Origin: a virus
Length of the DNA: 20,303 nt
Direction: 5' to 3' (one strand)
IMG/VR virus record: IMGVR_UViG_3300010354_000886
Coordinates: 1-20,303 of that record
The position numbers and the translations under genes were made by a program. This document shows, one piece after another, positions 1,282 to 20,303 of the stretch (the stretch's first letter is position 1; each line of letters opens with the position of its first letter). The notes under the pieces are model-generated. The model made no database searches. It had not been told where the DNA came from and saw only the letters and a program-made list of their open reading frames with translations.

Positions 1282-1292
1282 CCTAGATTTCC
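1282..1292 (-). promoter_or_regulatory. Leader element, GGAAATCTAGG
   Basis: Copy of the recurrent GG(A/C)AA(A/C/T)CTAGG element. Its CTAG ends 22 nt before the GTG at 1260. Confidence 0.6.
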
Positions 1293-1593: not shown

Positions 1594-1613
1594 GAGTGAC
1601 CGCGGGACACGGA

Positions 1614-1625
1614 CTAGGTTGCCCC
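1614..1625 (-). promoter_or_regulatory. Leader element, GGGGCAACCTAG
   Basis: Its CTAG ends 20 nt before the ATG at 1593. It directly abuts the hairpin at 1625-1644, giving the order hairpin, element, gene. The same arrangement is seen at 17659-17690. Confidence 0.6.
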
Positions 1626-3850: not shown

Positions 3851-4060
3851 TCAGCTCCTTGTGACGGTGAGGAGGTTGCCGCTGCCGTCGTAGGTCATCA
3901 CCAGCGTCGCCACGATCACGCCACTAGCGCCTCCGCGGCGGAACACCGTCTGGGTGAGGTTGGAGCCCGTCCACGTATTGGCGATGTAGTCGTGGGTGGG
4001 GATGGCTAGGCCGTCACGCGCTACGGCGTCCCCGCCTCCGCCGCCGAGATAAGTCGCCAT
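3851..4060 (-). CDS. Small conserved structural protein (69 aa), unknown role
   Basis: The N-terminus is glycine-rich (ATYLGGGGGD). Two predicted beta-hairpin stretches follow, one containing TWTGSNLTQTVFRRGG and one VIVATLVMTYDGSGNL. Proteins of this size and pattern recur beside fibre genes in phages and may be small beta-sheet fibre or baseplate components; the exact role is unknown. The ATG at 4060 follows a leader element by 23 nt, and the stop lies 3 nt before the next ATG, so it is the first gene of a tightly packed run through 1714. Confidence 0.75.
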   Translation of the reverse strand: MATYLGGGGGDAVARDGLAIPTHDYIANTWTGSNLTQTVFRRGGASGVIVATLVMTYDGSGNLLTVTRS

Positions 4061-4082: not shown

Positions 4083-4093
4083 CCTAGGTTTCC
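4083..4093 (-). promoter_or_regulatory. Leader element, GGAAACCTAGG
   Basis: The TAG inside this copy is also the stop codon of the upstream gene (reading GAA ACC TAG). Its CTAG ends 23 nt before the ATG at 4060. Confidence 0.6.
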
Positions 4094-4833
4094 ACCGCCA
4101 GAGCCACCTCAGTCACCGAGCCACTCACGGCAGTCAGCTCCACCCACACGTAGCTGTCAGCCGGAATCGGCATGGTGCCGAGGGCGAGGGCAGCGCCGGT
4201 CGTGGTATTGGTGACGGTGGCGCTGATGGTGACAGGGGTGCCGGCGGCGGTGCGGTCCAAGGCGTGCTTCAGCGCCAGCGTCACGCTTGGAGAACTGGTG
4301 CCCTGAACCACAGCCGTCACCGCCGTCAGCGTCACGGCGGCGTCGGTGCGGAAGAGCGTCACCTCGGCGCCAGCCACCGGCGCCGGAATGACGAAGGACG
4401 CCGGGATGAGCGGGAGCTGGTCCGCCGTTGGCGCCACATAGTTGAGCAGCACTGTGCTGCTGGGGATCGTCAGCGCCAGTTGGTTGGCGGGACCGACTTG
4501 GCGCGGAGCGGCAAGTGGCGAGACCGTGGAGCCGGCAAAGGCGTAGAGCAGTTCAGCGGCAATGGCATCCAGCGCCAGGGTGCCGTCCCAGTCCACGAGG
4601 TACAGAGTCCAATCGCGCAGAGTGCCCTGGCCCTCGTACTGGGGTACCGGCGTGAGCGACGGCTGCGCCAGAATCACCACCTCCAGTCCCGTGACTTTGG
4701 TGTGGGCTGGGAGCGAGTCGCCTTCGTTGCGGACGGCGATGGCGGGAGTGGTGGCGCCGTTAGGCAGCGTATAGGTGCCTAAGTCTGTGGCGAGGAGTGT
4801 CTCCAGGTGGCTTCTGAGCTGGAGGAGGTCCAC
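4084..4833 (-). CDS. Tail-terminator-like N-domain fused to a C-terminal beta domain
   Basis: 249 aa from GTG at 4833. Residues 1-95 (LLQLRSHLETLLATDLGTYT, then TPAIAVRNEGDS, then LRDWTLYLVDWDGTLALDAIAAELL) have the alpha-beta pattern and Trp/Leu spacing of small tail completion/terminator proteins that cap the tail tube. Residues 135-249 are a separate beta-rich, Thr/Val-rich domain ending IPADSYVWVELTAVSGSVTEV, a module often seen at the ends of phage fibre or decoration proteins. The fusion is directly visible; both functions are inferred. There is no Shine-Dalgarno, but the leader element is 22 nt upstream. The neighbours are the tail chaperone and fibre genes. Confidence 0.65.
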   Translation of the reverse strand: MDLLQLRSHLETLLATDLGTYTLPNGATTPAIAVRNEGDSLPAHTKVTGLEVVILAQPSLTPVPQYEGQGTLRDWTLYLVDWDGTLALDAIAAELLYAFAGSTVSPLAAPRQVGPANQLALTIPSSTVLLNYVAPTADQLPLIPASFVIPAPVAGAEVTLFRTDAAVTLTAVTAVVQGTSSPSVTLALKHALDRTAAGTPVTISATVTNTTTGAALALGTMPIPADSYVWVELTAVSGSVTEVALAVET

Positions 4834-4854: not shown

Positions 4855-4867
4855 CCTAGGTTTCCCC
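4855..4867 (-). promoter_or_regulatory. Leader element, GGGGAAACCTAGG
   Basis: It lies in the 42-nt gap after the chaperone stop. Its CTAG ends 22 nt before the GTG at 4833. Confidence 0.6.
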
Positions 4868-7415: not shown

Positions 7416-7820
7416 TTAATCGTTGGTGTTGAGGCTGATGCGGTAGGTTTGTGTTTGGCCGGCGGCTAGGGTGATGTTGGGCGCTTCGGTTAGGACACTG
7501 TGCGGGTATGTGGCGCCGTCGATGTAGATGACGATGCGGTCGTAGCTGTAGCCGGCCCCAGTCGCTGTAAACGCCGCGTCAATGTCAGGCAGCTCATAGC
7601 GACCATCTGTGCCGTCGTAAGCGCCCGTGCCAATAGTGGTGGAATACCGCACGTAGCCGTTGCCGCTTTTCTCCACGCTCTGCCAATTCGCCACGGTGCT
7701 CTCGGCCGTGTAGCCGGTGCCCCCGACCGACGCCAAGAGCACTTTGAGAGTCTCGCCCTCGTAGGCCAAGGCTGCCACGCGCTCCAGTTCCTTCTGGCTC
7801 AGGGCTGCTGTGAGGGTCAT
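7416..7820 (-). CDS. Small tail/fibre-associated protein (134 aa)
   Basis: ATG at 7820, 16 nt after a leader element copy. The N-terminus is helical (AALSQKELERVAALAYEGETLKV) and the rest is beta-rich, with Gly/Thr/Tyr patches (VGGTGYTAEST, then YELPDIDAAFTATGAGYSYDRIVIYIDGATYPHS) and a terminal strand (QTYRISLNTND). Its size and pattern match small structural proteins that follow tail-tip genes in related phages, but no precise function is known. It is flanked by two LamG-type adhesin genes, so a tip or fibre-assembly role is likely. Confidence 0.72.
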   Translation of the reverse strand: MTLTAALSQKELERVAALAYEGETLKVLLASVGGTGYTAESTVANWQSVEKSGNGYVRYSTTIGTGAYDGTDGRYELPDIDAAFTATGAGYSYDRIVIYIDGATYPHSVLTEAPNITLAAGQTQTYRISLNTND

Positions 7821-7835: not shown

Positions 7836-7847
7836 CCTAGGTTGCCC
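7836..7847 (-). promoter_or_regulatory. Leader element, GGGCAACCTAGG
   Basis: It lies in the 28-nt gap after the tail-tip stop. Its CTAG ends 16 nt before ATG 7820. Confidence 0.6.
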
Positions 7848-11642: not shown

Positions 11643-14642
11643 TTAGATGGCTCGGTTGAGGACGTCGCCGTAGGCGGCGGAGCTGCCGTCGGCGTTGACG
11701 GCGACGTTGACGGCCCACTGCTTCGCAGCCAAGTCGCCGGTGGCTTTCAGTAGTTGGGCGTTGATGGTGGCGAGGGCGGCGGTGTTGTCGGCCAAGGCGC
11801 GTTGGACGTCGTTGACAGCTTTGGTGGCATCTAGCTCTGTTTTGACGCTGGTGATGAAGTCGCGGATGGCGGCGTTGACGTCTTGGGTGGAGCCGGAGAA
11901 CTCGGGTGCCGCTGCGCCGGTTAGGCCGCGGAATTGCTCTTGCGCCTGGCGGAACTGGGGCAGCAGCGTCTGGAAGTCGTTTTCGGCGCGCGTCTGTTGG
12001 TCGGCTGCAGAGAGAAAGCGGTTCAAGCCTTCGGGTGAGGAGCGCACCTCAGTGAACTTGAGAACGGCGTCGGTGAGGTCTTTGCTGAGGTCTTTGCCGG
12101 CTTGGCGGAGGGCGTCGGCGCCTTCGATAAGCTTCAGCCGCGTTGTCTCAGCCGCTGCCTTTTGTTGCTCAACGAGGCGGGCGGCTTCTTGCTCGCCGGC
12201 GTCGCCGCCGCGGAGGCGGGCAGCGTCAATGCCGGCGCCCAGAGACCGCTCGCGATCGCGAGATGCCGCAATCGCCTCCTGGAGTTGTTGGCGGCGCTGG
12301 AGTTCGGAGCGGGTGCGGTCGCCCTCGGTGGTGGCGAGAGTCTGGGCGGCGCTGATCTGGCGCTGGATGGCGCCCTGCTCAATGGCACTCTGCGCGTTTA
12401 GCTCAAACTGTGTGGCGAGCCGCTCCTGCTTAAGGCTGAGGAGCTGCTTCTCGGTGGCGTAGATCTGGGTGGCGTACTTCTGGTTGACCGCGTCGATGTC
12501 GGCTTGGGTGCGGTTCTTCGGCAGGTTGAAGATTTCGTCGTTGCGGGAGCGGATGAGTTGCTGTTTTTGGACCTCCAGCGTTTGTTGCTTGTAACCATCG
12601 ACGCTGGCGTCGATGAGTTGGTAGCTAAGGCGTTGGTTGGCGAGGTTGGCGGCTTCGGCGTTGGCGAGGCGGGACTCGGCCGCCAACACCTCGCGGGTCT
12701 TGCCGACGCGGCGGTCAAGCAGAGAGTTGACGTCTTTGTTGACTTCGAGGCTGGCGTCGGCCACGCTGATACCGGTGCCAGCTAGTTCGGAGGAGCGGCG
12801 CTGGCGCAGGGCGGCGACTTCGGCTTGTACGGCTTTCGGCGCTGCGGCGACACGCTGGTCGGTCTGGCCTTGGAGCACCAGAGCGTTAGTGCTGGAGGCG
12901 AGCTTGCTGATGAAGTCGGCGAGGGGGCCGGCGGCGAAGTTGGCGATGGCGACGCCCGCGCTGGCAAAGGCGCGGTTGAGGTCGTCGGTGGCGGAGCGCA
13001 ACTGCTCCAAGTTGCCGGTGTCGCCGTAGCGCTTGGCGATGTCGAGCTGGATCAGCGCTGCGGCTTCGCCCTCGCGGCCGGCGGCGATAAGCGCCGCAGC
13101 CTGACGCTCAATGGCACCCGAGGACAGCAGCGACGCTTGGCGCAGGGCGTCGAACTGGCCGATGGGGTCGTTGAGGCCGGCGGCCAGGGTCTTGCCCTTC
13201 TCCAGCGTTTGGTCGAAGGCGGCGCCGATGGCGGTGCCGACGACACTGAGGGCAAAGCCGAAGCCGCCACCTAGGGCGCCACCGGCGGCGCCACCGACGA
13301 GGCCGCCCGCAGCGGCACCGGCGCCTTGGCCGAACAGCAGGGGGAATCCGCCGCCGATGAGGGCAGAGCTGGCGACTCCGCCGAGGCGGTTACGGAAGCC
13401 GTCTGTGGCGGCAGTGGTCTGGCGGTCCTGCGAGGAGAGCAGCTCCTTGGCGCGTGTCTCCAGTTCGCGGCGGCGTTGTTGGGCAGCGCGTTCGTCGGTG
13501 CGGCGACCGGCGCGTTGGAGTAGCAGGAGCTGGCGCTGGCCCTCAGCCTTAAAGGCTGGGGAGCCGAGGATGTTGACAGCGCCGCCCACGGCTTGGCGGG
13601 CGCCGCCGAGGCGGGCGCCGCGGTTGATCTCGCGGAGGCGCTCGCGTTCCGCGAGACGCTCGCTGCGGCGGCCGGCGGCCTGGAGCAGGCGGAACTGGCG
13701 GTCGCCCTCGGCCTTAAACGCCGGGGAGCCGACAATGTCAACGGCGCCGCGGACCGGGAGACGGGCACCGCCGGCGCGGGCGCGGAAGGCGGTGTCGGCG
13801 GGAGAGCCTTCAAGGCCGATGCGGCCGTTGACGGGAGAGCGGGGGCCGCCAATGCGCTCGGCGGCTCGCTGTTGGCGCTGCAGCTCAATCGTGGTCTCGC
13901 GCTCAGTGCGAAGGCGAGCCTCGGCTAGACGTACTTGGCGGGTGAGGTCAACGCTGAGGCGGCGCTGTAGCTCGAACTGGCGCCCACTCTGAGCCTCCGT
14001 GACTTTGCCGAGGCTTGTGCGGAGGCGGGTAACGTCGGCGCCTTGCTCCTCAAGGCGGTTGATGCGTTGGGAGAGGTTAAAGCGGCGCTGTTGCGCCTGC
14101 TCCAAGGCGTTGAGCGATAGCGCTGCACCGCCTTGGGAGGCGCCGCGGGTGGCGAAGGCGGCGCTGCCGATGTCCCGGACGGAGCCGCCGATGGCGGAGC
14201 GGGGGCCTCCGGCGCGTTCGGAGGCGCGTTGCTGGCGCTCCAGCGCCGATGCCGTTTCACGCTCAGTGCGGAGTCGCGCCTGGGAAAGGCGGATCTGGCG
14301 GCTGAGGTCTACGCTCAGACGCCGTTGGAACTCGAACTGGCGCGAGGCTTGGGCTTCGGTGAGGCGCCCCAAGCTGGTGCGCAGCCTTGAGACGTTGGCG
14401 CCTTGCTCCTCAAGGCGGTTGATCTGTTGGGCGAGGCGGAAGCGGCGCTCTTGCGACTGCTCCAGCGCCCGGACTGATTCGCGTGCGCCCCCGGCGCCTC
14501 TGCCACCGCCTGTGGCGCGGGAGGCTTTGCCTACAGCGCCATTGACCTCTTTGACCTGCTTCTTTAGCGCTTCGAGTTTGGCTTTGGCGTCGCCGTCGTC
14601 TACCTCAATTCGCAGTATGGCTTTGCCGAGTTCGTCAGCCAC
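11643..14642 (-). CDS. Tape measure protein (999 aa)
   Basis: GTG at 14642. This is the longest helical protein of the window: a 55-residue start with a coiled coil, then Arg/Gln/Glu-rich helical repeats. Two 120-residue copies (residues 59-178 and 179-298) are followed by two 55-residue units sharing G-S-P-A-F-K-A-E-G. Residues 424-478 are a Gly/Ala-rich apolar stretch (SALIGGGFPLLFGQGAG, then GGFGFALSVVGTAIGAAF), typical of the membrane-interacting part of tape measures. The remainder is coiled coil. It sets tail length; at about 0.15 nm per residue it would give a tail near 150 nm, which is an estimate. It lies upstream of the Dit-like gene as usual. The chaperone gene normally just before it is absent there. 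Confidence 0.93.
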   Translation of the reverse strand: MADELGKAILRIEVDDGDAKAKLEALKKQVKEVNGAVGKASRATGGGRGAGGARESVRALEQSQERRFRLAQQINRLEEQGANVSRLRTSLGRLTEAQASRQFEFQRRLSVDLSRQIRLSQARLRTERETASALERQQRASERAGGPRSAIGGSVRDIGSAAFATRGASQGGAALSLNALEQAQQRRFNLSQRINRLEEQGADVTRLRTSLGKVTEAQSGRQFELQRRLSVDLTRQVRLAEARLRTERETTIELQRQQRAAERIGGPRSPVNGRIGLEGSPADTAFRARAGGARLPVRGAVDIVGSPAFKAEGDRQFRLLQAAGRRSERLAERERLREINRGARLGGARQAVGGAVNILGSPAFKAEGQRQLLLLQRAGRRTDERAAQQRRRELETRAKELLSSQDRQTTAATDGFRNRLGGVASSALIGGGFPLLFGQGAGAAAGGLVGGAAGGALGGGFGFALSVVGTAIGAAFDQTLEKGKTLAAGLNDPIGQFDALRQASLLSSGAIERQAAALIAAGREGEAAALIQLDIAKRYGDTGNLEQLRSATDDLNRAFASAGVAIANFAAGPLADFISKLASSTNALVLQGQTDQRVAAAPKAVQAEVAALRQRRSSELAGTGISVADASLEVNKDVNSLLDRRVGKTREVLAAESRLANAEAANLANQRLSYQLIDASVDGYKQQTLEVQKQQLIRSRNDEIFNLPKNRTQADIDAVNQKYATQIYATEKQLLSLKQERLATQFELNAQSAIEQGAIQRQISAAQTLATTEGDRTRSELQRRQQLQEAIAASRDRERSLGAGIDAARLRGGDAGEQEAARLVEQQKAAAETTRLKLIEGADALRQAGKDLSKDLTDAVLKFTEVRSSPEGLNRFLSAADQQTRAENDFQTLLPQFRQAQEQFRGLTGAAAPEFSGSTQDVNAAIRDFITSVKTELDATKAVNDVQRALADNTAALATINAQLLKATGDLAAKQWAVNVAVNADGSSAAYGDVLNRAI
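12249..12262. repeat. Perfect palindrome containing the only HIP1 octamer seen
   Basis: CTCGCGATCGCGAG includes GCGATCGC (12252-12259), the highly iterated palindrome of many freshwater cyanobacteria. It lies within the tape measure gene. Confidence 0.7.
13443..13772 (-). repeat. Two 165-bp tandem units in the tape measure gene
   Basis: Residues 291-345 and 346-400 align, with GGAR at the start, GSPAFKAEG in the middle and AGRR near the end of the shared core. Confidence 0.75.
13749..14468 (-). repeat. Two 360-bp tandem units in the tape measure gene
   Basis: Residues 59-178 and 179-298 are two copies with exact 120-residue spacing. Both carry INRLEEQGA, RLRTSLG, TEAQ, QRRLSVDL and ARLRTERET. 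This is a duplicated coiled-coil module. Confidence 0.88.
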
Positions 14643-14664
14643 CGCAAAGCGCTACGCCACTGGA

Positions 14665-14691
14665 CCTAGGTTTCCGTCCGGGAAACCTAGG
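14665..14691. promoter_or_regulatory. Two leader elements back to back between divergent genes
   Basis: CCTAGGTTTCC and GGAAACCTAGG are perfect 11-bp arms around GTCCG. Each arm is a leader element in the sense of its own gene: CTAG ends 23 nt before GTG 14642 (minus) and 21 nt before GTG 14712 (plus). This is the only divergent start-to-start gap in the window. Confidence 0.72.
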
Positions 14692-14711
14692 GAGCTGGTG
14701 CGGCCGAAGCT

Positions 14712-15101
14712 GTGAGCGCGTTTGAAGCCCTGGAGAACGCCGTAATGACGCTCACCGTGCCGGCAAGCGGCACGGTGACTGATCCTGATACGGGCAACGT
14801 CTTTGCGGCGACGGAGACGGTGGAGGTGAGGGCGTGGCTGAAGGCGGAGAGCGTGGCGGAGGCGACTTTCCCCGGCGTTGAAGTCATCTCGGCGCTCTAT
14901 GACGGGTACGTCACATCAGGCGCTCTCGACGCTCGCGTCGTCAAAGGCACTCTCGGCACCCTGGCGTTTGCTGGTGCAGCGGCGGTGGAGTGCGAGGTGG
15001 TGGAGGCACGGCTGCCTCACGGCGAGCAGGGGCTGCTGGGCGAGGTGCTCACAGGCGCACTCGGAGCGAAGCTCCGAGTGGTGTCGAGGGAGCGGAGCTA
15101 G
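14712..15101 (+). CDS. Head-closure / neck-type protein on the plus strand (129 aa)
   Basis: GTG at 14712 is the first possible start after an in-frame TAG within the leader element, and lies 21 nt after it. The N-terminus is a helix (SAFEALENAV). Beta-rich sequence follows (TVPASGTVTDPDTGNVFAATETVEVRAWLKAE), then FPGVEVISALYDGYVTSGALDARVVKG, and a terminal part ending GALGAKLRVVSRE. The size and pattern suit small neck or head-tail joining proteins in phages. It overlaps the next gene by one base (TAGTG), so the two act as a unit. It is transcribed opposite to all neighbours. The protein-like periodicity is much better than any minus-strand frame here. The function is inferred from the partner gene and size. 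Confidence 0.72.
   Translation: MSAFEALENAVMTLTVPASGTVTDPDTGNVFAATETVEVRAWLKAESVAEATFPGVEVISALYDGYVTSGALDARVVKGTLGTLAFAGAAAVECEVVEARLPHGEQGLLGEVLTGALGAKLRVVSRERS
15058..15080. repeat. Perfect 10-bp hairpin with GAA loop
   Basis: CACTCGGAGC and GCTCCGAGTG flank GAA, at the 3' end of the plus-strand neck gene. It codes A-L-G-A-K-L-R-V. Confidence 0.85.
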
Positions 15102-15607
15102 TGGCGCGAGTCACGCTGGAGCTGAAGACGTGGAACGCCGAGGCGTTACTGGCGCGGAGCGACCAAGTGCTAGGGGCGTTTGCGCCGGTCATTGCTCAGG
15201 AGGCTAGGCGCCAGCTCACCGAGGAGAAGTGGGTGTGGCCTAACCCCACCACGCGCTTTCGCAGCTTGTTCCAGAGCGGCAAGGCTGTGAAAAGCAAGTA
15301 CGGCACTGGCGTGGTGATTCCGGCGGGGCCGAGGGACGTGGTGGACACTGGCACTCTGCTGTCTTCGCAGCAGCCGCCGGTGGTGAAGAACGGCGTTCTC
15401 AGCATTGAGTGGACGGCGCCCTATGCGGAGAACGTGAGGCGGGGTGCCTATAACGCTGCGTACTACGGGCCGCTGTCGCGGAAACTGGTGCCAGCGCCAG
15501 GACAGAAGCCAGCGCGGGATTGGATTGCGGCGGCCCTGGCCGAGAAGCCGCTCAAGCCGTTCTTTGTGGAGAAGTGGCGCGAGTTGGCGGGTGGCGCTAA
15601 AGCATGA
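15101..15607 (+). CDS. Neck / tail-component protein, HK97 gp10-like (168 aa)
   Basis: GTG at 15101 shares its first base with the previous TAG. A helix (AEALLARSDQVLGAFAPVIAQEARRQL) comes first. The gp10-type signature follows: VDTGTLLSSQQPP, then VLSIEWTAPYAENVRRGAY, then KPARDWIAAALA, and a C-terminal FFVEKWRELA. In HK97-like phages gp10 family proteins sit at the head-tail junction. A longer frame opens at 14990, but its extra part overlaps the upstream gene and is Arg/Gly junk, so it is rejected. The gene is convergent with the tail tube gene; its stop touches that gene's terminator. Confidence 0.82.
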   Translation: MARVTLELKTWNAEALLARSDQVLGAFAPVIAQEARRQLTEEKWVWPNPTTRFRSLFQSGKAVKSKYGTGVVIPAGPRDVVDTGTLLSSQQPPVVKNGVLSIEWTAPYAENVRRGAYNAAYYGPLSRKLVPAPGQKPARDWIAAALAEKPLKPFFVEKWRELAGGAKA

Positions 15608-15629
15608 AAAAGCGGCCCGTGGGGGCCGC
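15607..15629 (-). terminator. Rho-independent terminator of the tail tube gene
   Basis: In the minus sense a 7-bp GC stem (GCGGCCC/GGGCCGC, 15612-15629) with a 4-nt loop is followed by TTTTT (15611-15607), 35 nt after the tail tube stop. No T-tract follows on the plus strand. Confidence 0.82.
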
Positions 15630-15663
15630 GGTGAAGACCAATGGCGCTTGGAGTGTAACGCTA

Positions 15664-16425
15664 TCAGGATACAGCTGCCACGGTGAACGTCGGTAAAACG
15701 TCTGCTCCTGCGTCGCCGACGGTGCCGGCGTTGACGGTGAGGATGTCGCCCACGCGATAGTTGGTGCCGGCGGCGATGATGGTCGGGGCGGCGGTGACGC
15801 CGCCACCGCCGGCAACCACGATGTCAGCGGTGGCACCCTTGCCGGAGCCGATGCCCTGCTGGGGCGTGACAGAGACGAGGGCGACGCCGCTGTAGGTGGC
15901 GGGGGTGAGGCCGCTGCCGCCGGTGGTGACGGTCAGGGTGGCGATTGGGTTGCCCTGCGGGTAGAAGCGGTAAGCGCCGTAGCCGGTCAGGGTGAAGCTC
16001 ACTTTGGCGATATTGCCGGCGGTGATGTCCTCGGAGAAGTCGCCGATCTGGGCGAGGCCAGTGTGGACTTCGGGGTTATCGCCAGAGGCGTCAGTGACGG
16101 GGGTTTCGCGGTACCACTCAAGTACGGCACCATCGGTAGCTTTAAGAGCTGCTTTTTTGAGGATTTCGTAACCAGAATCGGTCACGTCGAGGTTCATAGA
16201 ACAGGGAATCGAATATGACTGGCTGGTGATAAGGTTGCTTTGGAATCCTTGCTCCGAGTCATAATCAACGACAGAGGTTGACTCTGAGGTGCCTTGGATG
16301 CCGGTGTTGTCCAGCGACAGGATGCGGGTCAGGCCGGCGGTGGTTGTCGGCGCCGTACTGGCGGTGCTGCCCAGCTTCACATACAGCTTGTAGCCGAGCG
16401 AGGCGAAGAACGAGCCGGTAGCCAT
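15664..16425 (-). CDS. Major tail tube protein (253 aa)
   Basis: ATG at 16425, 19 nt after a leader element that contains the previous stop codon. Residues 1-165 fit a tail tube fold: LGYKLYVKLGST, ILSLDNTGIQGTSESTSVVDYDSEQGFQSN, SQSYSIPCSMNLDVTDSGYEILKKAALKATDG, VLEWYRE, then GDFSEDITAGNIAKVSFTLTGYGAYRF. Residues 166-253 are a separate Gly/Thr/Val-rich beta add-on with GSGLTPATYSG and GTNYRVGDILTVNAGT motifs, likely exposed on the tail surface. A strong terminator follows the gene, as expected for an abundant structural protein. It lies upstream of the tape measure, though a plus-strand pair intervenes. Tail tube is a confident call; the role of the C-domain is unknown. Confidence 0.85.
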   Translation of the reverse strand: MATGSFFASLGYKLYVKLGSTASTAPTTTAGLTRILSLDNTGIQGTSESTSVVDYDSEQGFQSNLITSQSYSIPCSMNLDVTDSGYEILKKAALKATDGAVLEWYRETPVTDASGDNPEVHTGLAQIGDFSEDITAGNIAKVSFTLTGYGAYRFYPQGNPIATLTVTTGGSGLTPATYSGVALVSVTPQQGIGSGKGATADIVVAGGGGVTAAPTIIAAGTNYRVGDILTVNAGTVGDAGADVLPTFTVAAVS

Positions 16426-16444
16426 GGACCCACTTACTAGTTCC

Positions 16445-16454
16445 CTAGATTGCC
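16445..16454 (-). promoter_or_regulatory. Leader element, GGCAATCTAG
   Basis: It overlaps the stop of the sigma-like gene (GCA ATC TAG). Its CTAG ends 19 nt before the tail tube ATG at 16425. Confidence 0.6.
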
Positions 16455-17008
16455 GTTTGTGCCTCCTGCGCCTCTAACTCGTCCCATGGCGTTGGGCGCG
16501 GACAGGTGTGGAGGTCGAAGCCGCGGATGTCGTGGTCGGTGGGTTGCGTAGCCACCAACGCCAGTTTCAGCTCCGACTCACTGATAGCCAGTTGCGTGAG
16601 TACCTCAGCGGCGGTCGAGCCTCTCTCTAGGAGGCGTCGTGCCATCTGGCCGATGCGGCGGACGTTGCCGGGCGCCTTCACCAGCCAGTTGTGGTCGCGG
16701 ATGAAGTGCAGGATGTCGCCTTCGCAAAAGACGGTGAGGAGCGTCGAGAACGTGCCTTTCTGTGGATCCCAGGCGCGGCACGTCTTTATGAAGCCCGTGT
16801 CGATGCAGCTGAAGAGGTCGCTGGAGTCAACGAAGGGGTACTTGCGGCAGAGCTTGCGGCCGAGCAGGCGGAGGAGGCCGCGATGCTCGCGGTACATCCG
16901 CGCCACATATCGCTGCTCGTCCGGGGAGAGCGGGGTGGCGAGGTAGCCGGTGCGGGGGCGTTTCCGCGCTGGTGCCGGTCGCTCGGAAGTGGCAGCGCAG
17001 TTTGCCAT
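16445..17008 (-). CDS. Sigma-factor-like protein (region 2/3-type, no region 4), 187 aa
   Basis: ATG at 17008 is preceded by GGGGGCGC. A longer GTG start at 17038 is rejected because it would sit inside a perfect hairpin. After a basic N-terminus (ARKRPRTGYL), residues 33-105 resemble sigma-70 region 2: YVARMYREHRGLLRLLGRKL, then DSSDLFSCIDTGFIKTCRAWDPQKGTF-S-T, then CEGDILHFIRDHN. Residues 106-152 (WLVKAPGNVRRIGQM, RLLERGSTAAEVLTQLAISESEL) resemble region 3. No region 4 follows; the last 35 residues are acidic. Such proteins direct RNA polymerase to promoters that need only a -10-like element, as phage T4 gp55 does. The call is from motif recognition; the activity is untested. Its location among structural genes is unusual. 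Confidence 0.7.
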   Translation of the reverse strand: MANCAATSERPAPARKRPRTGYLATPLSPDEQRYVARMYREHRGLLRLLGRKLCRKYPFVDSSDLFSCIDTGFIKTCRAWDPQKGTFSTLLTVFCEGDILHFIRDHNWLVKAPGNVRRIGQMARRLLERGSTAAEVLTQLAISESELKLALVATQPTDHDIRGFDLHTCPRPTPWDELEAQEAQTAI

Positions 17009-17019
17009 GCGCCCCCATA

Positions 17020-17042
17020 CTAGGTGGCACAAAGCCACCTAG
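17020..17042. repeat. Perfect 9-bp hairpin upstream of the sigma-like gene
   Basis: CTAGGTGGC and GCCACCTAG flank ACAAA. It lies between the leader element and the ATG at 17008, so any transcript from the element would carry it in its 5' leader. Confidence 0.82.
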
Positions 17043-17050
17043 CTAGGTTG
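17043..17050 (-). promoter_or_regulatory. Leader element, partial (CAACCTAG)
   Basis: Only the CAACCTAG core is kept. It lies 34 nt before ATG 17008, longer than in other copies because the hairpin at 17020-17042 is inserted between. Confidence 0.45.
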
Positions 17051-17054
17051 AGTC

Positions 17055-17073
17055 GATCCGGCTTCGCCGGATC
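17055..17073. repeat. Perfect 8-bp hairpin after the DnaT-like gene
   Basis: GATCCGGC and GCCGGATC flank TTC. On the minus strand this contains GCGAAGC, a sequence known to form exceptionally stable mini-hairpins. It overlaps the stop codon (17072-17074). There is no T-tract, so termination is doubtful. Confidence 0.82.
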
Positions 17074-17641
17074 AGGAGCGGACCACTGCGCACACGCCGC
17101 CAGTGCCGCCGCCGGTTGAGCTGGTGCAGAGACAGCCGAGGATGGTCGCCAGATGCGGCAACATCGTTAGTGGCGTGGGGCGGCTCGTAGTGCTGTTGGC
17201 GCGGTCAGAGCGCCACTCAAACTCGACCACGTCGAGCTTCAGCCGGCTCAAGTCGCGGTTGGGGATGCCGGGCACCAGCGCTTCGCTGGTGGCGCTGCTT
17301 CGCAACAGCGTCGGATCACCTAAAAGCGCGTTGGCTAGGTCGAAAGTGGCTAGTTCGATCTCGCGGGGGATCTCATCGTCGGCGGGGGCTTTGTCGCCGC
17401 ACTCGGCACCAGTGCGGGGCCACAACAGCGCCTGAGTCTCGGACGCCTTTGTGCCGATGTAGCTCAAGGTGTCCAAGCCGTTGGTGGCGGTGATTAGCGC
17501 ACGCGCCTTCTCGTCGCTAGTGGCGGTGCTCCACGCCAGAGTGCCCAACATGCCATTGGCGATGCTGTCGGCCGTGGCGGTGGAGATGTAGGTGTTGGCG
17601 CTGGCTGAGCCGGCGGTGGCGACAAGAGCTGGTGCAGCCAT
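17072..17641 (-). CDS. DnaT-like / head-tail connector family protein (189 aa)
   Basis: ATG at 17641, 17 nt after a leader element. The pattern ANTYISTATADSIANG, then W-S-TATSDEKARALITATNGLDTLSYIG, then ETQALLWPRTGAECGD, then P-REIELATFDLANALL matches the phage family annotated as putative DnaT-like ssDNA-binding protein. That family typically occupies the first connector position (gp6-like, docking below the portal), so a connector role is more likely than DNA binding. The C-terminal 40 residues are Thr/Ser/Gly-rich with three Cys (ATILGCLCTSSTGGGTGGVC). It follows the capsid genes and precedes the sigma-like gene. A small hairpin (17273-17291) lies inside the gene. Confidence 0.8.
   Translation of the reverse strand: MAAPALVATAGSASANTYISTATADSIANGMLGTLAWSTATSDEKARALITATNGLDTLSYIGTKASETQALLWPRTGAECGDKAPADDEIPREIELATFDLANALLGDPTLLRSSATSEALVPGIPNRDLSRLKLDVVEFEWRSDRANSTTSRPTPLTMLPHLATILGCLCTSSTGGGTGGVCAVVRS
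17273..17291. repeat. Perfect 8-bp hairpin inside the DnaT-like gene
   Basis: CACCAGCG and CGCTGGTG flank CTT. The minus strand contains GCGAAGC. It codes part of S-A-T-S-E-A-L-V-P. Confidence 0.75.
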
Positions 17642-17658
17642 GGGCCAGAGCTATAAAG

Positions 17659-17668
17659 CTAGTTTGCC
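17659..17668 (-). promoter_or_regulatory. Leader element, GGCAAACTAG
   Basis: It contains the stop of the 53-aa gene (GCA AAC TAG). Its CTAG ends 17 nt before ATG 17641, directly after the hairpin at 17668-17690. Confidence 0.6.
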
Positions 17669-17820
17669 TGAGCCGCCTGCGGCGGCTCAGATTTGACGCT
17701 GCGACGGCGAGACTTCGGCGCAGGAGGCTCTTCGGCGATAACCGGTGCAGCAGCCTCGGGTTGCTGTGCAGCTGCGGCGGCTTCCTGTTCGCGGAGGCGG
17801 CGAAAAGCGTGCATGCCCAT
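17659..17820 (-). CDS. Small Ala/Glu/Gln-rich charged protein (53 aa)
   Basis: ATG at 17820. The sequence begins MGMHAFRRLREQEAAAAAQQ and continues with PEAAAPVIAEEPPAPKSRRR and a basic Lys/Ser/Glu end. It is low-complexity with an N-terminal helix and a Pro-rich basic tail. It lies between the terminator after the capsid genes and the connector gene. Short proteins of this style occur beside connector genes in several phages, but no function is known. The frame also stays open upstream through the capsid decoration gene; that extension reads out-of-frame sequence and crosses the terminator, so the start here is the sensible one. There is no leader element before it, unlike most genes that begin a block. 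Confidence 0.6.
   Translation of the reverse strand: MGMHAFRRLREQEAAAAAQQPEAAAPVIAEEPPAPKSRRRSVKSEPPQAAQAN
17668..17690. repeat. Perfect 10-bp hairpin at the end of the 53-aa gene
   Basis: CTGAGCCGCC and GGCGGCTCAG flank TGC (GCA on the minus strand). It encodes S-E-P-P-Q-A-A-Q just before the stop, and abuts the leader element of the next gene. Confidence 0.85.
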
Positions 17821-17840: not shown

Positions 17841-17867
17841 AAAAAAGGCTCCAGCACTGCTGGAGCC
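17841..17867 (-). terminator. Rho-independent terminator after the capsid/decoration genes
   Basis: A perfect 10-bp stem GGCTCCAGCA/TGCTGGAGCC (17847-17867) is followed in the minus sense by TTTTTT (17846-17841). It lies 52 nt beyond the decoration gene and would separate capsid expression from connector expression. Confidence 0.88.
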
Positions 17868-17881
17868 CTGTGGGCTGATTT

Positions 17882-18436: not shown

Positions 18437-19489
18437 TCAGTCGAAGTTCGACGTCACCGTGATCCGGACGATGCCGATGTTCTCGGTGCTGAACACCTTC
18501 TCCCAGTTGGCGGCGGTTGCCAGGTCGGCGGTGGTGGGGTTGGCAGAGCCGACGTAGCGGGCGCCCAGAGGGTGGTAGACGTTGTGCCAGTCAACGCTCA
18601 TGGCGTCGGACTTCGCGAGGATGTCGCGATCCACCTCAGAGCGCAGGGAGGCTTGCTCGCCGGTGCCGACTGCGCCGTTCGCCATGACGTAGCAGGCGTA
18701 CTTGGTGCTGGAGCCAGAGCCGGAGGTGGGGACGTCCTTGGAGCGGATCACGCGCATACCCATGTAGTAGGGCACTTGCATGTTGGCGGCGTAGGCCGCT
18801 GCCACCGAGCCGCCGAAGGCGTTGAGGCCTGTGATGGAGCCGGCAGCGATGGTGGAGGCAGTGACGCGAGCGTCGCTGGCGCTGACGAAGTCAATGGCCT
18901 TGCGCTCCTTGAGGTCGGCATACACGAGGGGGTGCATGACGATGGCGCCGAGACGCTCGGCGTCCTCCAGGAGGATGGCTTCGGCTGCGGCGATCTGGCG
19001 GGGGCCGAGGACAGTCTCGCCGGAGCCGGAGGCGTCAACCGACAGCGCCGCGAAGGCGGCGGTGGAGTTGGACGAGCCGAGAGCGCCGAAAACGCCACTC
19101 AGAGTGGCGATCATGTCCTTCTGCTGCTGGTTGGAGATGTAATCCGCAACCTTGGCGCCGATGGCACCCATGGGGTCAGAGCCGGCGGCGAGCTTGGCGA
19201 GGTCGCGCGACTCCCAGGCGCGGCCACGGTGCAGCACCACGCCGACCTGCTTGTCGGCGGTGATCTTGCCGGGGGTCAGAGAGGTGTTGTCGGTGAGGCG
19301 CTCGGCGTCGCCGCTCAGGTCGGCTTTCCAGTTCGGGACGTTGATCTTGTCGCCACCTTCGGTGGCGTTGAGGACGTCCAGGGGCGCTACGACGCCCGAG
19401 GTGAGGAAGCTGTTGCGAACCGTTGTCGCCTCAATGAGATAGGGCGTAAAAATCTCGGGGATGATTACGTCGCTACGGAGGGTAGCCAT
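18437..19489 (-). CDS. Major capsid protein (350 aa)
   Basis: ATG at 19489. The start ATLRSDVIIPEIFTPYLIEA, then FLTSGVVAP, then GGDKINVPNWKADLSGDAERL, then HRGRAWESRDLAKLAAGSDPM is typical of the HK97-fold coat protein family with an N-terminal IIPEIFTPY strand. Later parts include ILLEDAERLGAIVMHPLVYADLKERKAIDFV and YMGMRVIRSKDVP. The length is normal for such coats. No pro-domain with a protease site was obvious, fitting a phage with a separate scaffold just upstream. There is a weak start region with no Shine-Dalgarno and no leader element, so it may be expressed from the scaffold transcript. A hairpin follows the stop. Confidence 0.92.
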   Translation of the reverse strand: MATLRSDVIIPEIFTPYLIEATTVRNSFLTSGVVAPLDVLNATEGGDKINVPNWKADLSGDAERLTDNTSLTPGKITADKQVGVVLHRGRAWESRDLAKLAAGSDPMGAIGAKVADYISNQQQKDMIATLSGVFGALGSSNSTAAFAALSVDASGSGETVLGPRQIAAAEAILLEDAERLGAIVMHPLVYADLKERKAIDFVSASDARVTASTIAAGSITGLNAFGGSVAAAYAANMQVPYYMGMRVIRSKDVPTSGSGSSTKYACYVMANGAVGTGEQASLRSEVDRDILAKSDAMSVDWHNVYHPLGARYVGSANPTTADLATAANWEKVFSTENIGIVRITVTSNFD

Positions 19490-19526
19490 GGCGGGGGAAC
19501 CGGGTCAGGTGGGTAAGGCGTACCGC

Positions 19527-20270
19527 TCAGCCTCGGCTGGCTTCGGCTTTTAGACGGTCGTGCGTGGCACGGTCCTCTCGGTACAGACGGGCGATCTCGG
19601 TGAGGTTTGGCGGGCTAGCCAAGAACGGGTTGGAGCCGCTTGGCACTGAGGGCGTTAGCGCCGGCGAAGCCGGGGCTCCCATTCCTCTTGAGCCGGTGGG
19701 GGCAAAGTGGTGATCCCAGCCGGACTCGGGGGAGCGCAGACGCGCTAGGTAGTCCGTGAGGGGGATCTCAATGCCGCCCTGGATGACGGCAGGCTTGCCG
19801 TCGGCCTCGCGGAGATCTGGTGCGATGAGAGAGAGGAGTTGGTCGGGACGGAGCGCCTGAGCCGCGGTGATCTCTTGGATAGCCCGAGTGCGGAGTGACT
19901 CGGTGTTCCTGGCTTGGCGCTCGGCGTCAAGCTCGGACTGCAGTTCGGCTATACGCCGTTCCAGCTCGATATTGGTGGCTTTGGCGTCCTCCCACAGCTG
20001 CTTGTATTCGCCAGAACTGGCGAGCTGCTGCGTTTTACCGTCCTTGAGTTGGGCCTGCGTCGCTCTAAGCGACTCCTCCAGCTCCTGCAAGCGTTGGTTG
20101 AGCTGGGCGTTTTTCTCGCCGGCTCTCCGCTTGTCCTCGGTGACGAGTTCGAGCTTCGTCCTGAGGCGGGCTAGCTCTTCGGTGCTGGAAGTGTCTTGAG
20201 CATCGGGCGAAGGCGTCACGGACGCTTTCTGGTCCTCCGCAGGAGGGCCCCCGTTGACTGATTCAGCCAC
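19527..20270 (-). CDS. Scaffold-like coiled-coil capsid assembly protein (247 aa)
   Basis: GTG at 20270, 22 nt after a leader element. Residues 1-35 are polar and disordered (Pro/Ser/Glu-rich). Residues 33-130 form a long coiled coil (ELARLRTKLELVTEDKRRAG, RLQELEESLRATQAQL, ELERRIAELQSELDAERQ). After this come ITAAQALRPDQLLSLIAPDLRE, a Gly/Pro-rich part (TGSRGMGAPASPALTPSV) and a short C-terminal helix (LTEIARLYREDRATHDRL). An acidic coiled coil with a small C-terminal helix directly before the major capsid gene is the classic layout of a scaffold (GP20-like minor structural protein). It would guide capsid assembly and then leave. No protease motif is seen. Confidence 0.82.
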   Translation of the reverse strand: MAESVNGGPPAEDQKASVTPSPDAQDTSSTEELARLRTKLELVTEDKRRAGEKNAQLNQRLQELEESLRATQAQLKDGKTQQLASSGEYKQLWEDAKATNIELERRIAELQSELDAERQARNTESLRTRAIQEITAAQALRPDQLLSLIAPDLREADGKPAVIQGGIEIPLTDYLARLRSPESGWDHHFAPTGSRGMGAPASPALTPSVPSGSNPFLASPPNLTEIARLYREDRATHDRLKAEASRG

Positions 20271-20292
20271 GCGGGTAAGTGAGGGTACATGA

Positions 20293-20303
20293 CTAGTTTG
20301 CCG
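20293..20303 (-). promoter_or_regulatory. Leader element at the window edge, CGGCAAACTAG
   Basis: Its CTAG ends 22 nt before GTG 20270. The copy touches the right end of the window, so its full context is not visible. Confidence 0.55.

Follow-up and report, generated by a model that had tools for sequence, protein, structure and literature searches.

The window, which is the whole 20,303-nucleotide stretch of viral DNA analysed here (positions 1 to 20,303 of IMG/VR record IMGVR_UViG_3300010354_000886), contains on its minus strand an intact open reading frame for a 187-residue protein, SIG, with an ATG at 17008 and a stop at 16445. An in-frame GTG at 17038 is a possible alternative start codon. 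In a first-pass annotation, made from the sequence alone, the gene had been described as encoding a sigma-like factor between connector and tail tube genes. This placement was borne out by the flanking genes, and the locus comprises the following features.

16445..17008, minus strand: SIG, assigned as a region-4-less sigma factor gene (187 aa; PHROG and NCBIfam profiles and predicted structure)
17072..17641, minus strand: Ad1, head-tail adaptor gene heading the Ad1-SIG-TT block (phrog_477, E 1.4e-27; synteny)
15664..16425, minus strand: TT, major tail (tube) protein gene (phrog_1407/38654, E about 1e-8; synteny)
14712..15607, plus strand: inverted gene pair, running opposite to the other genes of the cassette and kept in sigma-carrying relatives
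17845..17869, minus strand: hairpin resembling a terminator, ahead of the Ad1-SIG-TT block (by pattern match only; stem of 11 bp with a T run)
15612..15629, minus strand: terminator-like hairpin after TT (pattern match only)

The second gene of the inverted pair resembles a tail-completion protein by eye and has no PHROG match. No Rfam match and no tRNA were found in the window.

All sequence blocks quoted in the first-pass annotation are present in the SIG protein, in which region 2 is placed at approximately residues 29-108 and region 3 at approximately residues 114-153, and which ends in a conserved C-terminal tail, CPRPTPW-D/E-LE. In searches against PHROG profiles, SIG matched phrog_351, annotated as RNA polymerase sigma factor, above chance (E 8.8e-11) as well as phrog_36098 (E 1.7e-8), and phrog_3741 was the only other family listed. 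Matches to the NCBIfam subfamilies SigF, SigB and FliA had E-values of 1e-6 to 3e-5, under the curated cut-offs. A Pfam scan of the single SIG protein gave no match, and Sigma70_r2 was found sub-threshold (E 1e-4 to 1e-2) in three of the four relatives scanned. A profile built from 39 relatives matched the solved SigB structure 8x6g at positions 35-156 with an E-value of 2.6e-6.

An AlphaFold model based on the 39 relatives has a mean pLDDT of 74; in blocks of ten residues the region 2 helices reach about 80-91, and the weak parts are the N-terminus and the linker at residues 157-169. Every Foldseek match listed for the model is a sigma factor or a sigma-polymerase complex (best E 1.4e-3), and the top VIA-align matches are likewise all sigma factors. 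The N-terminal domain of SigE (8b3z) aligned over 77 residues with a Z-score of 9.5 and an rmsd of 2.3, a match to be read with the caveat that helical folds reach middling Z easily. Residues 26-172 aligned to sigma 70, sigma 28 and SigB with Z-scores of about 8-9 and a large rmsd, which a different relative placement of domains 2 and 3 would be expected to cause. Because the structural match agrees with the sequence profiles, including that to the solved SigB, the sigma assignment is firm, and the region 2-like and region 3-like blocks proposed earlier are upheld. The earlier claim that region 4 is absent agrees with the Pfam scans, in which the region was found neither in SIG nor in four relatives, and with the model, which aligns to sigma only to about residue 172 and ends in a region 3.2-like tail, the family alignment being 197 columns long. 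Judged by profiles and model together, SIG is a protein of the sigma-70 superfamily with regions 2 and 3 and without region 4.

Relatives of SIG were found in 80 IMG/VR loci, with 54-99% identity, and the order adaptor, SIG, tail tube is retained in all 80 where the contig covers the slot. Downstream of the tail tube gene the relatives usually carry the conserved inverted gene pair, followed by the tape measure gene. The family alignment has 44 invariant columns, and the most conserved parts of the protein, IRDHNW, DLFSCID-F-K-C and PxxGxFST, are the core-binding and DNA-facing segments. SIG and its slot persist across these loci, although identity among the major capsid proteins varies between about 26% and 98%. 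By these comparisons SIG is a real, conserved gene. A TAG inside SIG of G015/G018 was considered as a recoded codon, a reading that is unneeded in L127 (identical to G018), where the TAG precedes the true ATG. In one locus (L057, 2518-3225) SIG is separated from the tail tube gene by an HNH-like, homing-endonuclease-like gene of about 0.7 kb, and similar gaps occur in L060-L062, L065, L069, L073 and L076.

A nucleotide-level relative of positions 14500-17700 was not found among 50,697 phage records. The contig scan gave L106 (JAURGS010000261.1), a 3.3-kb contig in a Rhodoferax MAG with a SIG 73% identical; Rhodoferax was set aside as the host, since the contig is probably misbinned phage DNA, and the host is not fixed by L106. 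Based on the relatives of the capsid and sigma proteins, the host is probably cyanobacterial.

The DNA upstream of conserved genes in the loci was found on reading to contain an 11-bp directional sequence, GGMAACCTAGG. Expectation-maximisation with random starts, applied to the 100 nt upstream of 527 genes called with a home-made script in the window and eight long relatives, gave GGCAACCTAGGT as its best motif, with about 20% of the genes using it. A scan of the nine sequences with a matrix trained on these same genomes yielded 174 sites at or above 9.5 bits, of which 100 lie between genes and point towards a start codon. Distances from motif to start peak clearly at 15-25 nt, with a minor second peak at 0-5 nt. 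The window holds ten sites, every one of them directed at the next gene.

17658..17668, minus strand: putative promoter GGCAAACTAGC, 16 nt before Ad1 (13.6 bits)
16444..16454, minus strand: putative promoter GGCAATCTAGG, 18 nt before TT (motif scan)
14665..14675, minus strand: putative promoter GGAAACCTAGG before the tape measure gene (motif scan)
14681..14691, plus strand: putative promoter GGAAACCTAGG before the inverted pair, back to back with 14665..14675 (motif scan)
20292..20302, minus strand: putative promoter before the scaffold gene (14.6 bits)
7836..7846, minus strand: putative promoter GGCAACCTAGG before gene 7416-7820 (motif scan)
4855..4865, minus strand: putative promoter GGAAACCTAGG before gene 4084-4833 (motif scan)
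4083..4093, minus strand: putative promoter GGAAACCTAGG before gene 3851-4060 (motif scan)
1613..1623, minus strand: putative promoter GGCAACCTAGT before the gene with a stop at 1303 (motif scan)
1282..1292, minus strand: putative promoter GGAAATCTAGG before gene 928-1260 (motif scan)

The plain CTAG count in the window is not raised (54 observed versus 64 expected); only the longer directional motif is. A generic sigma-70 promoter scan of the window gave two sites, which equals the chance expectation. No prior description of GGMAACCTAGG was found in the open-access PMC literature. About ten motif copies end 0-5 nt before a start codon (e.g. G003 24003, G002 24773, G001 25518), which would mean either leaderless late mRNAs under the promoter register suggested below or misplaced start codons. 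Close to where the late and early arms converge lies an inverted repeat of two motif-like halves, GGCAACCTTGGCATAGCGCTAGGTTGCTCGG (G001 43904-43931, G002 41990-42017, G004 38211-38238 and G005 39854-39881), possibly a bidirectional terminator built from motif-like sequence.

In the eight long relatives the motif, at a threshold of at least 12 bits, precedes 81 of 265 late-arm genes versus 4 of 248 early-arm genes, an odds ratio of 27 for borders that were drawn by hand from landmark genes after the motif matches were known, so that its p-value should not be read at face value. The landmarks, taken from PHROGs, were terminase, portal, head, tail fibre and endolysin for the late arm, and DNA polymerase, primase, exonuclease and the full-length sigma for the early arm. 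All four early-arm exceptions are in G003, one of them before the full-length sigma gene, and the other seven of the eight genomes have none.

Across 76 distinct sites the information is restricted to one 11-bp block, and at -59 to -18 no conserved second block that could be a -35 partner rises above background. In the -10 element read by sigma 70, A-11 and T-7 are the bases flipped out by sigma region 2. The near-invariant A and T of the motif lie four bases apart and were numbered -11 and -7, and on this assignment GG would occupy the extended -10 position at -14/-13, followed by the hexamer, with the transcription start 4 nt after the block. The sole isolated downstream peak, an A at 51%, sits exactly at the predicted +1. 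A TATA stretch that follows the motif in some relatives was set aside as the true -10, being missing in the window's copies. The isolates S-CBS2 and S-CRES1 have a related motif, GGNANNCTAG, before their late genes; it includes GGTATACTAG, and its TATACT is close to the canonical -10 hexamer in the same register.

The association of motif and SIG was assessed in relatives gathered by a portal-protein search, independently of SIG. Of the 40 loci that carry SIG and extend far enough upstream, the scan found the motif ahead of the portal gene in 38. L183 and L184, where it was missed, have a G003-type portal, and the G003 copy is 26 nt upstream of the portal start, slightly beyond the scanned stretch. 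In the SIG-free loci with the adaptor-adjacent slot covered, the motif precedes the portal in none of three (L171, L177, L181), which may be one lineage. Whole-record motif searches agree with the portal scan, except that G010 and G012 each contain a single stray match, and among portal-sharing phages of similar G+C the motif density is 4.24 per 10 kb with SIG versus 0.27 without. In L181, read by eye, a conventional tail gene order follows the adaptor, all on one strand, and the inverted pair that lies between tail tube and tape measure in the relatives was not seen.

This leads to the question of which protein reads the motif. Each long relative (G001-G008) also encodes, in its early arm, a full-length group-2-like sigma with region 4 (e.g. 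G007 19089-20048), which could serve as the reader, and a further contig, G009, carries the motif and a full-length sigma with no SIG on the contig. Mycobacteriophage repressors, moreover, use short directional sites near gene starts, the L5 stoperators. The motif might thus be a promoter or operator for another protein, either the full-length phage sigma or a repressor of the L5 type, with SIG having an unrelated regulatory job. However, phage KBS-S-2A, which has a related capsid protein (60.5%) and a full-length sigma, has no detectable SIG and zero motif matches. G009 is incomplete after the capsid gene, where no adaptor gene was found, and its SIG may lie beyond the end of the contig. Unlike the sites of region-4 sigmas the motif lacks a -35 block, and its counterpart in S-CBS2 and S-CRES1 resembles a -10 element. 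Taken together, KBS-S-2A and the co-occurrence suggest that the motif is read by SIG and not by the full-length sigma, and a different reader appears unlikely.

Among the known systems closest to SIG are the group 3 sigmas of cyanosiphoviruses. P-SS2 has two sigma genes, of group 2 and group 3, and the passages on them in PMC2784084 suggest a particular regulon for the group 3 sigma and assign it no promoter of its own. SIG and the SigF-like group 3 sigmas of P-SS2, S-CBS2 and S-CRES1 are homologous over regions 2-3 (hhalign 98.1%, E 7.9e-14). By Pfam these group 3 sigmas have only region 2 and, like SIG, no region 4, and each of these phages carries a second, RpoD/group-2 sigma gene, as the SIG phages carry a full-length sigma. 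On the other hand, SIG shares just 29-37% identity with them, and their genes adjoin terL, whereas the SIG slot in the 80 loci is between Ad1 and TT. The earlier remark that a sigma gene is out of place in a virion-structure cassette therefore needs correction as to its unusualness, although the placement itself stands. The bacterial sigmas SigB, SigF and FliA, which represent the best curated families and solved structures for SIG, differ from it in having region 4 and bipartite promoters.

In function, the nearest precedent is phiEco32 gp36, a region-4-less sigma with a single-element middle/late promoter, tAATGTAtA, from which transcription starts 6-8 bp downstream (PMC8948821). SIG also lacks region 4, and its phages have a single-element late motif that SIG would read; promoter sequence, host and gene position differ, and the likeness is functional and not drawn from sequence comparison. 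The second precedent is T4 gp55, a region-2-type sigma without domain 4 that uses a short late promoter resembling extended -10 sites (PMC2988020). T4 late transcription requires gp33 and the sliding clamp, and SIG is likened to gp55 by function only. The comparison with gp55 made in the first-pass annotation gains support as far as SIG would work like gp55, given a late-gene-specific single-block motif that co-occurs with the gene; membership of the gp55 family lies outside that support. The sequences of gp55 and gp33 were not among the family or structure matches listed for SIG, and a relation may still exist.

Two further roles were considered for SIG. Its gene sits among connector and tail genes, and the PhyR sigma-like domain (3t0y) is among its structural matches, so that SIG could be a sigma mimic, either a PhyR-like anti-sigma decoy or a sigma-derived virion or connector component. 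This is very improbable, because conservation in SIG is highest in the core-binding and DNA-facing segments, and SIG co-occurs with a late-gene motif; no sign supporting a virion-component role was found, and the virion proteomics table in PMC2784084 gives 0 peptides for the P-SS2 group 3 sigma. That SIG chiefly redirects host genes, in line with the phage sigma factors acting on host dormancy that PMC9429907 mentions for Bacillota phages, is scarcely credible, given the enrichment of the associated motif upstream of the phage's late genes.

Thus, SIG very likely acts as a sigma factor for late genes at promoters consisting of a -10 element alone; in function it would resemble T4 gp55 and phiEco32 gp36, and it forms a family of its own. 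Contact with the host RNA polymerase core would be made by the conserved region 2.2 of SIG, and regions 2.3-2.4 and 3.0 would recognise and open a compact promoter in which GG at -14/-13 precedes a -10 hexamer of MAACCT type (-12 to -7, including A-11 and T-7) and AGG follows it, with a start about 7 nt past T-7. With no region 4 in SIG, a -35 element would not be needed. Expression of the packaging, head, tail and lysis units would depend on about ten such promoters per genome. The motif at 17658..17668 would drive Ad1-SIG-TT, which places SIG within its own predicted regulon; SIG would then feed back on its own synthesis and late transcription would stay on. Early genes would be read by the host sigma together with the phage full-length group-2-like sigma, and the first SIG molecules might, as a guess, come from read-through or from the full-length sigma.

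What is new here is the SIG family, its position in the virion cassette, the late promoter assigned to it and the evidence for their co-occurrence. By genome comparison it is likely that the late genes of a widespread, uncultured, cyanophage-like lineage form a late regulon of their own that depends on a region-4-less sigma and about ten one-block GGMAACCTAGG promoters per genome, a system gained or lost with the sigma gene and diverged to GGNANNCTAG, the counterpart motif, in S-CBS2-like phages. If so, a late-transcription switch would be mapped for a phage group with annotated sigma genes, of whose promoters no description was found in the open-access literature, and the late-sigma claim is directly testable in the existing isolates S-CBS2 and S-CRES1. 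With the motif, early genes could be told by sequence from late ones in many uncultured genomes, and small orthogonal sigma/promoter pairs are possible cyanobacterial expression tools. SIG and its promoter would constitute a further natural class of -10-only, region-4-less sigma/promoter pair beside those of T4 and phiEco32.
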